Assembly: GCA_021234155.1 (NCBI GenBank)
Contig: JAJEKV010000101.1
Coordinates: 3,453,748 to 3,517,747, forward strand
From: Isoetes taiwanensis
Taxonomy: Eukaryota; Streptophyta; Lycopodiopsida; Isoetales; Isoetaceae
Direction of reading: 5' to 3'
Length of the DNA: 64,000 nucleotides
The notes below the pieces were generated by a model. It searched no databases. It worked only from the letters and a program-made list of their open reading frames with translations, and had not been told where the DNA came from. Positions within the stretch are counted from its first letter, which is position 1, and the number at the start of each line of letters is the position of its first letter. This document shows positions 2,158 to 59,550 of the stretch, one piece after another. Made by a program: the position numbers and the translations under genes.

Positions 2158-2938
2158 GCACATCTTAAAGAGTAAGTACATGCTTTTAAAGGTTTGCAAA
2201 TTCTTGTAAACAACCATCTCTAATCATAAGACAAGCATGAGACGTGCCATTGTTAGTTGTATTTTGCAAAAAGGGTTTCTCATTCAAGTTCCAAAAGTGC
2301 CTAGATGTCAAGTAAGATACAGTGGCCTTCAAAATCGATTTCAACAAGTCGATTCAAGTGCTTCTTGTTGGTGTTAATGATGGCAAACATAGTCTGATAG
2401 ATACTCTATATGAATCTGTTTGTCACTATTGTTAACATCTCCACTCATCTTTATATTATAATGTTAACTCCTGTGTCATGGATCACGCCCTAAAACTTTG
2501 GACGGCCCAGATTTACTTGAAATTTTTTTTGATGCGTTAGATTTACTTGAAAAAGTTGGTCGGTACTTTTCTTTCTTAAGTTTTTCACGTTTTAAGGCTG
2601 CTACAGCCGCCATTGGCAGGATATGACAGGGTAGCAATGGAGCAGTTGTGGAAATAGGGTGCAGAAGGAAGCCGTTTTCCAGTTTCACAAATTTGTAAAA
2701 TTCGTGAGTTACTTTAGAAAGCATCTTCACAAACCAAACTTCTTATATCCTATAAAGTCTTCTCTCCTTTTTGCGGTCGTGGCTTGATGGTTGGATTTGC
2801 TACAACTAATTTAGACAACGAAAATAACCCAAATAATCGGACATTTCTGTGTTGATTCCCTTGCTTTAGAGGTCCAAATCTAGCGCTCCATCCTCCTAGA
2901 TGTCTCTAGGTTTGATCCTGTCCCCCTCACCTTGCCAC
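2158..2938 (+). repeat. S block, unit 1 copy 2 (MITE-free)
   Basis: Same block as 767-2078 but with an empty MITE site at about 2332 and an empty Helitron site between 2461 (A) and 2462 (T). The minus strand has an 82-codon open frame (2476-2724) that recurs in other S copies, but its C-terminal half changes frame with the length of a poly(T) tract, so I do not treat it as a gene. Confidence 0.75.
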
Positions 2939-4779
<1,841 letters not shown>

Positions 4780-50481: not shown

Positions 50482-51837
50482 CACATCTTAAAGAGTAAGT
50501 ACACGCTTTTAAAGGTTTGCAAATTCTTGTAAACAAATCTCTAATCATAAGACAAGCAGGAGACGTGCCATTGTTAGTTGTATTTTGCAGAAAGGGTTTC
50601 TCATTCAAGTTCCAAAAGTGCCTAGATGTCAAGTAAGATACAGTCATGGAATAATTTAAGGGCTAAACTTAGCTATTTGGCGATTTTTTAGCACATTTTC
50701 GAAAAAAAAATTGGCTAAAGTAAATGGAAAAAATTGGAAAAAAGATAATAATTTTAGCTTAACTTTTTTTGGGACTGCACCAGACCTGGAGCTCTTTAGC
50801 CAAATGCTAGAAAGTAAGAGAGTGAAATTTTATATTGTTTAGCTAAGCCATAGAAATATCATTCTAATTTAAAAGAAATATATGATTAGTAGTTTAGCTT
50901 CTAGCATTATAAATTAATTTAAGTCAATAGATTTTGCTAGTTAGCATTATTTTAGAATATTTTCACAAAGAAAATGACTAAAATAAGTGGAAACAATTGG
51001 AAAAAAGTATAGTAATTTGGCTTGATATTTCCGTTGGCCACACCATAGAAATTTTTGGGAAGATGTTTGGGTTAGTTTAGCTAAACGCTAGAAAGTATGA
51101 GATGAAAATATGTAGAGTTTAGCTAAACCACAGAAAGTTTGGGGATTACTATCGAAAGCAAGTTTAGCTAAAGTCATTCGGCTAATAAGAAATATGCGAT
51201 TAGTAATTTATTCCCGGATCTGATGGCCTTTAAAATTGATTTCAACAAGTCAATTCAAGTGCTTCTTGTTGGTGTTAATGATGGCAAACATAGTCTGATA
51301 GATACTCTATATGAATCTATTTATCACTATTGTTAACATCTCCACTCATCTTTATATTATAATGTTAACTCATGTGTCATGGATCAAGCCCTAAAACTTT
51401 TGGGCCCAGTTACTTACTTTTTTTTTTGATGCCTTAGATTTACTTGAAAAAGTTGATTGGTACTTTTCTTTCTTAAGTTTTCCACGTTTTAAGGCTGCTA
51501 CGGCCGCCATTGGCAGGATATGACAGGGTAGCAATGGAGCAGTTGTGGAAATAGGGTGCGGAAGGAAGCCGTTTTCCAGTTTCACAAATTTGTAAAATTC
51601 GTGAGTTACTTTAGAAAGCATCTTCACAAAGCAAGCTTCTTTATATCCTATGAAGTCTTCTTCTCTTTTGCAGTGCGTGGCTTGGTGGTTGGATTTGCTA
51701 CATCTAATTTAGACAACAAAAATAACCCAAATAATCTGTCATTTCTGTGTTGATTCTCTTGCTCCAGAGGTCCAAATCTAGCGCTCCATCCTCTTAGATG
51801 TCTCTAGGTTTGATCCTGTCCCCCTCGCCTTGCCACT
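50482..51837 (+). repeat. S block, unit 4 copy 1 (MITE-bearing)
   Basis: Contains MITE-A. Unlike units 1-3 it keeps the full 'gcaagcttctttatatccta' segment, so it represents the undeleted form. Confidence 0.75.
50645..51216 (+). mobile_element. MITE-A, hAT-type, unit 4
   Basis: 572 bp. Left target copy GATACAGT; the right end and target copy are blurred ('cccggatctgatgg' for 'ccctggatacagtgg'), again at a CTG. Confidence 0.82.
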
Positions 51838-52230
51838 TGCATCATGTCGTGACGCTAATACATCAACCACATAGCCTAGCATGGAGCTCACAATCTGCAA
51901 CCATCCTATTGAAAAGCACATCTTAAAGAGTAAGTACACGCTTTTAAAGGTTTGCAAATTCTTGTAAACAACCATCTCTAATCATAAGACAAGCATGAGA
52001 CGTGCCATTGTTAGTTGTATTTTGCAAAAAGGGTTTCTCATTCAAGTTCCAAAAGTGCCTAGATGTCAAGTAAGATACAGTGGCCTTCAAAATCGATTTC
52101 AACAAGTCGATTCAAGTGCTTCTTGTTGGTGTTAATGATGGCAAACATAGTCTGATAGATACTCTATATGAATCTGTTTGTCACTATTGTTAACATCTTC
52201 ACTCATCTTTATATTATAACTAGAAAAAGT

Positions 52231-52247
52231 GCCCAGCGTTGCTGGGC
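52231..52247 (-). other. Helitron 2 3'-terminal hairpin
   Basis: Seven-bp stem GCCCAGC/GCTGGGC with a 3-base loop, seven bases from the CTAG end. Same architecture as Helitron 1, but a different stem sequence. Confidence 0.9.
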
Positions 52248-52454
52248 TTTTTGTCGGGCATAAAAATATTGAAATTGTATTAAAAGTGGCTTCAGGTTGA
52301 TTATATGAGGACAATCATTATCTTCTTGAAATGACAGAGACCGACGCTATCAGTCTTTAGTAATTTTTTGTTAGGAAATGGGAAAATAAATTTTGTCTAT
52401 GTCTTTTTGTGAAAGTGTCATGTAAGTAGAGAAATACAACGACAGTCTGTGCAC

Positions 52455-52565
52455 ATTTGGACCGTTTATTTCATTTTGTGTTAAAACTTTCATTTGGACC
52501 GTTTATTTCATTTTGTGTTAAAACTTTCATTTGGACCGTTTATTTCATTTTGTGTTAAAACTTTC
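52455..52565 (+). repeat. 37-bp perfect tandem triplicate
   Basis: Three identical adjacent 37-bp copies (52455, 52492, 52529), each starting 'atttggaccgtttatttcat'. Located 200-350 bp inside the Helitron 2 3' end. Confidence 0.95.
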
Positions 52566-52974
52566 ATTTGTAGCTTGTTAGATCATGAGTGATGTCTTAT
52601 AACCGTGTACTTGATTTAACCCTACATGGTTCACTTTGCAGTATTGGGGATGGCACCTCAAACCTTGAACTTAATTCTACATCATTTACTATATAGATTT
52701 GACACAGAGAGCACATCATTTGGGGATACATTCACTACCTTCTAACCAAGTAGCCATTGAAGAATTATGTGTCACCTTTGGAAATGCGATCTGTCACTTG
52801 CAAAGACAATACAATGCCCCAAGTTATAAATTAAAAGATAAAGGATCAAAATGTGCAAGAATTTGGATGGTGACAAGTAATGGATATGTCAAGCTCAAGT
52901 GCATGAATCTAACAGCAGAGTGAACATGCATGGATTTATTGCTTTAAGGTTAAGGCACAAGGTGGGAGTCATTA

Positions 52975-54311
52975 TCACAACACAAAAGTGGCAAGCAAAT
53001 ATATGGCCTCTAACAAAAGGGCAAGTGTAAATAAACTAATTCTTCTTTCCATACGCCAAAAGGGACAAAACAATAAACAATATAGAAATGTTGGACTATC
53101 CTTATTGAAAAGACAATAATAGTCATCAATAACAGCTTCAACTTTGTCCAAAGTCAAACAACAAAAAAACCAAAGAAGCCCAAGCGTTGAAAGCTCGAAT
53201 TTTTGAGTTCCTTTAAGTGTTTCTCCATTCTTGGAATAGGCCATACCTGAAAATTTAAGATACACAAACAGATCTGTAAATGCAAAATGTAGTTCATACC
53301 CTTTTTTCTTTCTGTGCTAGATCTAAAACCTGCAAAAGCAATCTGCTACATAAATTTCCCCTCCATTGCAACGCTACACAATGAAATATACTGGTATCAA
53401 GGATATGCACATATGAGTGAGCTGAGAAATGCCCTTTTTTCTCTTCCAATTTTTGTCCAAACAACCATTCAATCTGGCACGCTAATTTGTCACCTTCTCC
53501 TCTAGAAATGGACACTCCAAATAACTTCCCAATTTTTTTTCCAAAACTCACAAATGCCGCTGCTGTTACAACTCCAAAACCCTAAGAATCAAACCTCACC
53601 TTATGCACCAAATCCTTCCATCAGCAAATAAGAAGAATGTGAATATGAAGGCAAATGGACTTAGCAGACTACTTGTGTAAGTGTTATATTTCATGTACTA
53701 CTACAATGATATATAATTCAGTAGATATTATGTACAGCTACAATGCAATAACGAAGAACGACTAATGTTTTACCTGGAAAATAAAATGGCGAAATCATGT
53801 ACGTGGAATGCCAATGCCGAAAGCAAGCGCTTCAAAGCCAAGGTGTTGCTAGCATATAATTGCATTGTGTATGTTAACATCTGCCTCAAGCCAAAAAGTG
53901 TCAGAGAATACTCTGTGGCATGAGCTCCTTCTCTAGCACAAACAGAAAACTGATCACTTTTGAAAACTGATCACTTTGTGTCTCATGCGATGGCATAAAT
54001 GTATGATAATTTAGCTCATGGTTAGCAGGTAGTCTCAAACCTTTGGAATGATTATCTGAATCAAACCCACATATCTGCAAGGAAAGATATCTGAATCCAA
54101 AAGGTTTCTTAAAGCTAGAGGTCTGGCAGCTTGGCTTTGGCTTCATGAACTGCTGAAAACAAAATCTGAAGACATGTTTTGAAGACTTTTGCTTTTCAGA
54201 TCGAGATATGCCCTGACAATATGCATGAGAGAGTTCAGAGTTTCTACAGGTTGGGAAGAAATGCGACATCATATCATGGCCAAGACTCTGAACTGAACTC
54301 TGCTTCAACAA
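52975..54311 (-). other. Possible second captured host segment in Helitron 2
   Basis: On the minus strand there are open frames at 53901-54311 (136 codons), 53294-53551 (85) and 52975-53265 (96), with splice-acceptor-like 'ctttccttgcag' near 54075 and 'tatcttaaattttcag' near 53248. One frame contains GKKIGKLFGVSISRGEGDKL, which looks protein-like, but I cannot place it in a family. It may be exons of one captured gene or chance frames. Confidence 0.25.
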
Positions 54312-54735
54312 AATTGTCCACCATAATATGACCCATTATTTTTTAATACCCATCTTTCTCAGAGTACATGTACCTATTTCGAGCTATCTTGGCCTTTTTG
54401 GTTTGACTACAGAGATCAGTTCGGCTTGAATTACCACCGCATGCTTGTACATCAAGACAAAATAATAAGCAATAAGACCTCTGTTTTTTCCAGCAATGCA
54501 TAAATCACGCAGTACTCTAATGTATTAAACCGGCATCTTATATAAAAAAATATCAGCTTTTATATCAACAAAGCTAACATATTGCACCCGTTTGGATGAG
54601 AACCAAATCGAAGAGCATGTTTTCTCAGCATATGCTTTTATCTAGCAATAACTGGCATCAACTGCATTCCAAAGAATGATGGCTGCTTTACATTATATTT
54701 TTGACTCTCACGCTCTTTAGAATCCATATACCTAG

Positions 54736-55887
54736 ACGGCATTGCATGCTCAAGCCCTGGTTAGAGTTCAAGCTCGGGTTCGGGTCAGAATGTCAGAGGA
54801 AGGCCAAGCAGTCCAACGCCAACTGCTTCAACTGAAGCAGCAGGAGCTTCGGAAAAAAGCTATGGTAAGACTATTTTCCAAGGTCCTCTTTCCTAGTTTC
54901 GGAACATATGCGAATAAAATTATGTTTATCTTGCAGTCAGAATGCAATTCCCAGGATGCTAAGAGTGAGAGTGTTATAAATGACAGAAATTCCAACAAGT
55001 ATTGGAACGATAGCAATTTATCAGCAGAAGAGATGCAAGCAAGAATGCAGAAAACACAAGAAGCAGCACTTAAACGCGAACGAGCATTGGGATATGCATT
55101 TTCTCACCAGGTTTCCAACACCTTTCATTTCAATTCTTGTAACTTGTGATTTATTTGTCTTGGAATCTGAAGCTTGATTATGATGCTGAATATACATAAG
55201 CTATGGAAGACGGGTGAGGAAGCTGCCAGTACGTTTATAGATTGTGATCCCGAGAAAGCACCTTGGGGATGGAGCTGGCTAGAGAGGTGGATGGCTGCAA
55301 GGCCTTGGGAAAACAGGTTAGACAGTAGTACCAATGAAGTCGAAACTCCAGTTAAAAAGAAAGAGGATGCAGCTAAGAACGTCGAAACCATTTTGGCCAG
55401 ATTAAGCACAAGCAGCAAAAGCTTAGCAGCAAATTGCTACAGCCATAACGGCACTCCAGGTTCAGCACAGATAACAAGCCAATCACCCAAAACTCCTGGA
55501 AAGCCAACACATGTTCTTGTCAAGTCTGCAAGTCCTCATGCTATTAGCAGGCTCATAGATGACCAAATGAGTGTGGCATCAAGTGCTCTGAGTACTCCTA
55601 GCATGCCCTTGGCTGCCTTACGTTATGGAAATCTGTCTAATGTAAGCTCTTTCAGAAATGATGAAAGCTCTGCCAGTGCTCACATATTGCCTAGCTACAT
55701 GGCACCAACCCAATCTGCAAAAGCTAAGGTACGCTCCCATAGCACTCCTAGACAGAGTCCTGGTACTCCAGATAAAGGTGCATTATCATCAGCAAAGAAA
55801 AGACTATCTTATCCTATCTATGAAGGCTCTGTTAGCAGTTTTGGAGCAAATATACATGTCATATTGTGCTGTAACCTTGCTATTTGA
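54736..55887 (+). pseudogene. IQD: Captured IQD (IQ67-domain) gene fragment, three exons
   Basis: IQD proteins are plant-specific calmodulin-binding scaffolds on microtubules and membranes. Exon a (54736-54864, after an AG) encodes the second half of IQ67: QALVRVQARVRVRMSEEGQ. Donor GTAAGA follows. Exon b (54937-55110) ends RERALGYAFSHQ before GT. Exon c (from 55201 after AG) encodes WGWSWLERWMAARPWENR and, further on, SYMAPTQSAKAKVRSHSTPR, QSPGTPDKG and KKRLSYP, typical of the IQD C-terminal region. All three exons are in phase 0 and open. The first exons, with the start and the first IQ motifs, are missing, and the frame runs into non-IQD residues before the stop at 55885. The fragment is truncated but little decayed, so capture was recent. 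It lies antisense to Helitron 2. Confidence 0.88.
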
Positions 55888-56690
55888 GCACATAAATACT
55901 GGTCCAAACAAATGCAATAAATTTTGGATGAAAATATCACCTGCCATCATCGGATAATACAAGGCAACGTTGCTGAAAAATGTTCAAGATCTTGTCTCCA
56001 GTATGACGTTCTTTAAAGACTATAAGAGCTTGGCCTGGTGAAGGCAATACATTTTACTCAAAGAAGGAAATACATCTTGAATCCCATAGTGTCAAAGTAT
56101 ATAATAACCTAGAGCAAGAATTGAATCTCCATTTTGTTGCTGAGAACAATGCAATGAACAACGATGTGCCACTGATGATACACGACATACAACTTTTGGA
56201 AAGAGCCGTAAATGCTGGGAACCACGATCAACGTAAAGCTTGCAAATGTGTTCGATTTAAAAATGTGTTTTTTCATGCAATATATCTTTGAATTGAATTT
56301 CATGGCGCTTTTAGCCCGCATTTTTGAAAAGGGTTTTGTTCATAGACTTACTTTTGAGTAGTATTCTTCGATTCAAGCCCCTTTTCCTTGCCGGTTCAGC
56401 GGATTACTCGACCTGGGTTTTATCGTCTCCATTTCTCAGGTGCCTTGTTCTCGTTTCGCAGCCACAAAATAAAAAGCCTAAAAATCAGCCTAAATCCCTG
56501 CTCAATCTGGAAAAAAATAGTGCGTAATGGCGGAAAGAAGTGGGAAGATGCCCAGATTTGTGGGAAGAAGAGAGCCAGAACCGTCGTATAAACAAAACTG
56601 CCAAAAGCCAAAATCAAGGGACGAAAATAAGTTAAAAAATTCAATGTACAAGATTGCGCACAGACTATCATAAAACGCCTTTATTATTAT
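55888..56690. other. Helitron 2 5' region
   Basis: Between the IQD fragment and the TC end. Only short frames; I see no gene or clear repeat. Confidence 0.4.
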
Positions 56691-57170
56691 ATATAGATGT
56701 TAACTCCTGTGTCATGGATCACGCCCTAAAACTTTGGACGGTCCAGATTTACTTGAAATTTTTTTTGATGCGTTAGATTTACTTGAAAAAGTTGGTCGGT
56801 ACTTTTCTTTCTTAAGTTTTTTTCGTTTTTTGTCGCATACAGCCGCCATTGGCAGGATATGACAGGGTAGCAATGGAGCAGTTGTGGAAATAGGGTGCAG
56901 AAGGAAGCCGTTTTCCAGTTTCACAAATTTGTAAAATTCGTGAGTTACTTTAGAAAGCATCTTCACAAACCAAACTTCTTATATCCTATAAAGTCTTCTC
57001 CTCTTTTGCAGTGCGTGGCTTGGTGGTTGGATTTGCTACAACTAACAACGAAAATAACCCAAATAATCGGACATGTCTGTGTTGATTCCCTTGCTTTAGA
57101 GGTCCAAATCTAGCGCTCCATCCTCCTAGATGTCTCTAGGTTTGATCCTGTCCCCCTCACCTTGCCACAT

Positions 57171-58440
<1,270 letters not shown>

Positions 58441-59550
58441 AATGAAGGAAGCCGTTTTCCAGTTTCACAAATTTGTAAAATTCGTGAGTTACTTTAGAAA
58501 GCATCTTCACAAACCAAACTTCTTATATCCTATAAAGTCTTCTCCTCTTTTGCAATGCGTGGCTTGGTGGTTGGATTTGCTATAGCTAATTTAGACAACG
58601 AAAATAACCCAAATAATCGGACATTTCTGTGTTGATTCCCTTGCTTTAGAGGTCCAAATCTAGCGCTCCATCCTCCTAGATGTCTCTAGGTTTGATCCTG
58701 TCCCCCTCACCTTGCCACATTATTTTTGATCTTCTTTATGACAACTCCAGGCATTGGCACAATAGCTGTCATTATTGTTTATTATGATGTCTGCATGATT
58801 GGATTGGAATGAAGGCCCAAGAGATTTCTTTGCTTCTAATATGACGCCAAAGCATGTAGTCACTGATTAAAGTTTTTTACATGCCCAAAGGGGCCGAGCA
58901 ACCTAACCTCGCTTACACTATGGCAATGGGGCCTCAACGCCTAAAAGCCTGCTGGCGGAAAAAGAGAGCTCAGTGGCTGGCCAGATGGAATGTGCAGGAG
59001 CATAGGTGCATCCAAGTGCAAACGGAGGCAGATCGCTGCGATCCTCGATTTGGGGGGGGGGGGAGGGTAACATTGCAGTGGTATCCAATTTTTGTTGTGT
59101 GAGCATGGGCATCGTTGCATTGTTTTTTTGTCAAGCTTCTAGCAGCAGCGGGGTTGGTGTAATGTTGGAATCATGAATGTTGTTCATAGATTTGTAATTG
59201 ACTCTCTCTTTTGCTTCACTAAATGTGGAGTTTGGAAAAGCATCTCTAGAATCATAAAATTGATTAAGGTTTAAGATGATTACTGTGTTATGAATGTGGT
59301 GACGAGGTTAGATGCATGCATGCTAGAGATGCGTCTTTTTTCTTTTTTCTTCTCTCTGTTTTTTTTTTTTTTTTTTTTTTTTTGGGGGTGGGTGGATGGG
59401 GATGATGAAGATGGGGGATGCCTATATGTGAGAACTATTTCGTCTCTATTGATTATTTTCTAGGAAGCCATTATTTAATTTCTAGTTCTTACTTGAATTA
59501 TGCCACGTTTGGTGCTTATGGCTGGTGTAGAGGGCGCAATTGAGTGTAAA
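58441..59550 (+). repeat. Internal tandem duplication of S/T sequence, unit 4
   Basis: Repeats 56904-58440, but with about 440 bp lost at 'gacgccaaagcatgtag' (58845-58860), which removes the microsatellite. The left junction, after 'aactgcaatgaa', joins S sequence at 'ggaagccg', with GAAG shared by both partners. A T24 run near 59359 has expanded in this copy. Confidence 0.75.

Follow-up and report, generated by a model that had tools for sequence, protein, structure and literature searches.

A complete Helitron of Isoetes taiwanensis with an IQD gene fragment nested in an earlier captured BAH-like fragment

The element described here lies in a stretch of 64,000 nucleotides of Isoetes taiwanensis DNA (assembly GCA_021234155.1, contig JAJEKV010000101.1, positions 3,453,748 to 3,517,747), termed the window. 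It is a complete Helitron of the canonical plant type that lacks a transposase of its own, and it carries part of an IQD gene (Table 1). To judge from its junctions, the IQD DNA arrived as about 1.14 kb, introns included, and replaced 91 bp of a BAH-like fragment which the element had already captured. The best explanation, and one that is very probable, is capture by break repair with IQD DNA as filler, followed by rolling-circle amplification and recent insertion here, the IQD fragment being a passenger.

Read on the minus strand, the element runs TCTATATATAATAATAAAGG...GCCCAGCAACGCTGGGCACTTTTTCTAG, with an A before it and a T after it. The letters of its 3′ hairpin are GCCCAGC-AAC-GCTGGGC; then come ACTTTTT and CTAG, and the stem stops 11 nt before the end. 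None of 200 shuffles equalled the folding of the 3′ end (z −4.23). When the flanks of the Helitron are joined and aligned to a nearby sister repeat whose corresponding site is unoccupied, identities are 97/100 to the left and 85/100 to the right of the junction, and no target duplication is present at the insertion. The features of canonical plant Helitrons are thus found together: 5′ TC and 3′ CTRR, a GC-rich hairpin, insertion between A and T, and ends that recur at unrelated sites. A preliminary description, made from the letters of the window, had read both termini in this way, with A and T on either side and an empty site in sister repeats, and the alignment agrees. Repeated units surround the Helitron at 51224-51836, 56698-57310 and 58444-58860. 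Within its 3′ side, at 52454-52570, one 43-nt stretch occurs three times without change, spaced 37 bp apart, as a tandem repeat.

The genome was searched at 1.66 Gb in 1110 contigs. A 34-mer made up of the final 33 bases and the T that follows them gave 913 matches with at most one mismatch, and its reversed control gave none. At least 13 loci are IQD-bearing Helitrons, the window and 12 others (the sisters). A CTAG|T end is present in 11 of the 13, with 3′ flanks that differ among those 11. A 5′ TC is readable in seven, preceded by A in six and by T in one, though in two of the seven the exact start is ambiguous because it is inside TCTA-type repeats; the remaining 5′ ends are degenerate, different there or outside the sequence read. 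C1007 and C1037 have common sequence at the expected position of the family 5′ end. Relatives that share the 3′ side of the Helitron (L023, L024 and L025) have no IQD match in the 5-7 kb of each compared. The preliminary description had expected the same ends elsewhere in the genome, which the 913 matches against no control matches bear out; nor was the IQD segment seen to pass 52220 or 56697 into a host gene, the other point on which that reading had been staked.

The IQD frame lies opposite to the Helitron, on the plus strand. Its three exons are open in frame, with GT/AG splice sites at 54865/54935 and 55111/55199, so that the three exons, intact introns and open antisense frame described earlier are confirmed. 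The span first given for it, 54736-55887, needs correction at both ends. Homology to the donor runs from 54743, seven bases later, to 55847, and the chimeric tail and the stop at 55887 come from neighbouring captured DNA. The donor, L021 (C1047:4085500-4091500, at 4.085-4.091 Mb), is the full-length IQD gene with near-identical exons and introns that the preliminary description had looked for. By eye, its open frames resolve into five exons that start with MGKKGNWFSAV and finish with ...GVPMPLHN, and Pfam finds in it both an IQ motif (25.5 bits) and DUF4005. It matches the element in the IQD part only (6 kb compared). The captured stretch is donor bases 2844-3992, of which the window retains 2880-3992; 1079 of 1095 aligned bases are identical, with 16 substitutions, and there are 10 further gap columns. 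Missing are the first (N-terminal) exons and the greater part of the IQ67 region, and in the window fragment Pfam detects no IQ motif and DUF4005 alone. Because DUF4005 is there without the IQ67 that should accompany it, the window IQD is a fragment and not a gene. Two other loci, C1049:10879948-10881618 and C1072:3580491-3582104, match the opening 273-274 bases of the IQD piece at about 90% identity and show another match of 84 nt some 1.3 kb away; they are probably IQD paralogues with a longer intron.

The junction at donor base 3992 is common to all 13 IQD loci. The start at 2844/2845 is found in nine, the other four being three with a shared deletion and one truncated copy. This single set of junctions points to one capture followed by amplification, and a capture that is older than the insertion in the window. 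The preliminary description had this Helitron capturing the IQD DNA; capture into the element stands, though it was not this copy that made it.

What was interrupted can be read from sister C1018a (L012). Its 2914-3145 match L028 2216-2437 and its 4283-4634 match L028 2529-2885, with the IQD DNA between. L028 (C1048) and L027 (C69) are two copies of one locus with a BAH-like frame, in which the Pfam match to BAH is below threshold (22.2 against a cut-off of 30.8). A 670-bp query from this locus gave 27 matches in the genome, and only the two at C1048 and C69 hold the stretch uninterrupted. In 13/13 IQD loci the fragment resumes at query base 314. Nine of them keep its left piece, which stops at query base 222 in eight and at 213 in the ninth, and matches that run on to base 248 occur in C930, C1050 and C1061. 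Microhomology at the junctions is 0 and 1 bp, the letters being judged by eye.

A double-strand break inside the element, with repair copying the IQD gene in as filler, would account for this arrangement. The Helitron would then have been amplified by rolling-circle transposition, presumably moved in trans by RepHel proteins, and recently inserted here with the IQD fragment as passenger. The published end-bypass model (PMC6544945, in the portion drawn on) would instead have rolling-circle replication miss the 3′ end and copy flanking IQD DNA, to be trimmed later. It predicts poorly where the IQD DNA is, in the interior of the element with Helitron sequence on both sides and between two halves of one earlier fragment; because the IQD DNA sits inside that older fragment, filler-DNA repair fits better and end bypass is given little credence.

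Several observations weigh against capture by filler repair and the history proposed for it. The repair step is read from anatomy, and the junction homology of 0 and 1 bp compares with 2-13 bp in the filler case in the available part of PMC6544945. PF14214, the RepHel domain sought, is plentiful (150 scored of 1813 candidates), yet among those 150 none was seen by eye less than 5 kb from about 100 listed of the 913 ends; the nearest among the matches listed is about 16 kb away, on C907. A possible pre-capture relative, which would favour that history, is the C930 element (L059 1-368 and 978-1041, C930:19593500-19595000), where a BAH-locus piece crosses the left breakpoint, a family 5′-end match follows about 0.6-0.7 kb further, and no IQD match was found in the 1.5 kb read. 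Yet C930 has no right half of the BAH-locus piece in that stretch and reaches further to the left; it may represent a separate capture and not a stage from before the IQD arrived. Lastly, with CAG and CTG sites (CWG) masked, the window and its closest sister C952 differ at 15/675 positions within the IQD, whereas outside it the figures are 3/1945 and 2/566.

Stops were counted against the window last-exon frame in aligned pieces of the 12 sisters, and 11 show at least one. Before this is taken as decay, where the sisters differ from the donor has to be considered. The differences are concentrated no more than two bases from CAG/CTG in all 11 sisters measured (C1018b, a truncated copy, was left out), by about 2 to 8-fold. 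Near and elsewhere, the counts are 60/314 and 38/791 for C952 (Fisher p 1e-12), 42/314 and 22/791 for C1018a and, weakest, 55/314 and 68/791 for C507; for the window they are 5/314 and 22/791 (Fisher p 0.29). In a ranking of trinucleotides pooled over the 11, CAG and CTG come first and second. A comparison of five regions, with a reference consensus partly built from the copies tested, finds the signal of C952 within the IQD, at 40/244 against 26/850. There the window lacks it (3/244 against 23/850); its own signal is at 55841-56470 (17/132 against 12/489) and, in weak form, at 53470-54742 (12/262 against 16/901). Where C952 departs from a state common to window and donor, 39 departures are shared with copies outside the clade, 34 of them near CAG/CTG, and 15 are private, five of them near. 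As controls, the pair L027/L028 (4.3 kb) has no CAG/CTG enrichment (22/871 against 71/3443), and four pairs of the flanking repeat units in the window have 1.6 to 3.2-fold, on small counts.

Because these differences cluster at CAG/CTG, turn up in separate sub-lineages and disagree with the tree built on the remaining sites, the contrast between an intact window copy and decayed sisters is unreliable. Simple deamination decay was dropped, since many of the changes are small complex indels; it is also contradicted by T>C (with A>G) exceeding C>T (with G>A) in nine of the 12 sisters, the two being equal in two and the order reversed in one. CAG/CTG is a context of plant CHG methylation, with the same methylated CWG core as the sites of bacterial Dcm. 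That shared core makes base-calling error of nanopore type at methylated sites the likeliest source of the sister differences, by analogy. In one study of Klebsiella pneumoniae, according to the available part of PMC6591954, Dcm motifs, CC(A/T)GG, accounted for about 70% of the consensus errors in nanopore assemblies when models had not been trained on them; the argument for plant CHG is an analogy to Dcm. Part of the decay may nevertheless be real, as three of the 12 sisters are clearly diverged after CWG masking (C464 46/605, C507 37/648 and C907a 36/637, or 5.7-7.6%, against 0.9-3.3% from the donor in the other nine). It is improbable that the CAG/CTG changes are themselves real, symmetric CHG-methylated sites in captured genes having been broken and imprecisely repaired, for instance after two-strand demethylase excision. 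If they were, captured gene fragments would be inactivated by methylation-directed indel mutation, and the window IQD and the donor would have been spared for want of methylation.

The absence of stops from the window frame, set beside the stops in 11 sisters, could be taken to mean that selection maintains it, an exaptation. That is hardly to be expected. Selection on the frame is not detectable in the comparison with the donor, where nonsynonymous and synonymous rates are indistinguishable (synonymous 4/201, nonsynonymous 8/729, intron 4/162; Fisher p = 0.30). The truncated C1018b copy is likewise free of stops, and in 10 of the 11 sisters measured more than half of the differences are within two bases of CAG/CTG and look artefactual, a statement that concerns differences at large and not the stops in particular. 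Gene conversion of the window IQD by the donor, to which the raw identity of 98.5% (against 94.9% to C952) would seem to point, is the least likely of the alternatives and was dropped after site-by-site and tree tests: window and C952 share 14 non-donor states in the IQD, four of the 14 being exclusive to window, C952 and C464 (one of these four near CAG/CTG), the tree from 689 non-CWG columns joins those three (support 92) while that from 398 CWG columns does not (C1018b left out of both), and CG sites hold 12 of the 15 window-C952 differences outside CWG, with the remaining three inside one such cluster.

With a substitution rate of 6.5e-9 per site and year, the 1.3-1.5% divergence would put the split of donor and Helitron lineages at roughly a million years ago. 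The split of window and C952, at the few differences outside the IQD given above, would on a rough estimate be several-fold younger. The preliminary description had called the capture recent because exons and splice sites were undecayed. Its youth is upheld by the donor divergence (16/1095); the intact exons no longer serve as its basis, the comparison with sisters being confounded by the CAG/CTG changes.

Left of the IQD is a further insert, shared with the relative L020 (C1088). L020 was rejected as its donor and is a relative instead; the PPR and kinase-like fragments that it carries (L020 767-2093, C1088:370500-376500) are between Helitron sequence and the shared insert. The fragment names used here, PP2C-like, WNK-like (for the kinase-like fragments of L020) and ASI1-like, are presumed labels; when the labelled fragments were checked with Pfam there was no PP2C match and the kinase matches were below threshold.

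Table 1. Features of the Helitron and its surroundings, in window coordinates
Feature	Position	Strand	Remarks
Complete non-autonomous Helitron	52220..56697	-	4478 bp; TC...CTAG ends between A and T; unoccupied site at 51362/51363; IQD also in 12 other copies
3′ terminus	52220..52247	-	hairpin 52231-52247 (7-bp stem, 3-nt loop); terminal CTAG 52220-52223
5′ terminus TCTATATATAATAATAAAGGCG	56676..56697	-	
Sister repeat with unoccupied site between 51362 and 51363	51224..51510	+	
Helitron 3′-side sequence	52220..53396	-	also in L023, L024, partly L025
Helitron 5′-side sequence	56205..56697	-	
Shared insert	53397..54752		also in relative L020 (C1088); in C1018a continues to presumed PP2C-like exon
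Deletion junction, about 620 bp lost relative to sister C1018a	54743..54752		common to window, C952, C464; left of IQD
Captured IQD exon	54743..54864	+	part of IQ67 region; 9-nt in-frame deletion relative to donor
Captured IQD exon	54937..55110	+	
Captured last IQD exon	55201..55887	+	IQD to 55847 (DUF4005, PF13178), then chimeric tail, stop
Right half of earlier captured BAH-like locus fragment	55848..56204		97% to L027 and L028

Helitron gene capture of this sort is already well known, and what lifts this case above the ordinary is the nested junction with its donor in hand together with the methylation-context pattern. In the portion of PMC3288121 drawn on, maize Helitrons likewise have CTAG 3′ ends, gene fragments gained stepwise inside and internal losses. 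The host and gene are different, and in the Isoetes element the earlier fragment is split by a later one, with a defined loss of 91 bp and a donor in the same genome. For Hel1 of Spodoptera frugiperda (PMC6544945, same portion) acquisition was also stepwise and internal, source loci were found and end bypass was argued against, though its pieces are short with 2-13 bp of junction homology, whereas here 1.14 kb of genic DNA is joined with 0-1 bp. SUN belongs to the IQD genes. The sun locus of tomato (PMC13317346, as far as the extract goes) is thus a case of an IQD-family gene moved by a transposon, there by transduction in the long terminal repeat retrotransposon Rider, giving a gene with a phenotype, and here by a Helitron with a 5′-truncated passenger. 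The Dcm errors of PMC6591954, in the part cited, resemble what is proposed for the sister differences in being clustered consensus errors where a methylated C is followed by W and G; they are bacterial, whereas the Isoetes case would involve plant CHG methylation. Among the matches of a full-text search for Helitron and IQD, neither term was in a title or abstract.

A capture matched to its donor, in which one fragment came to lie inside an older one and the losses are defined, is a clean case for models of break repair. The CAG/CTG pattern suggests that comparisons of 'intact' and 'decayed' captured genes in long-read plant assemblies may be misled by errors at methylated CHG/CG sites, and such errors bear on claims of selection or exaptation for transposon-borne genes.

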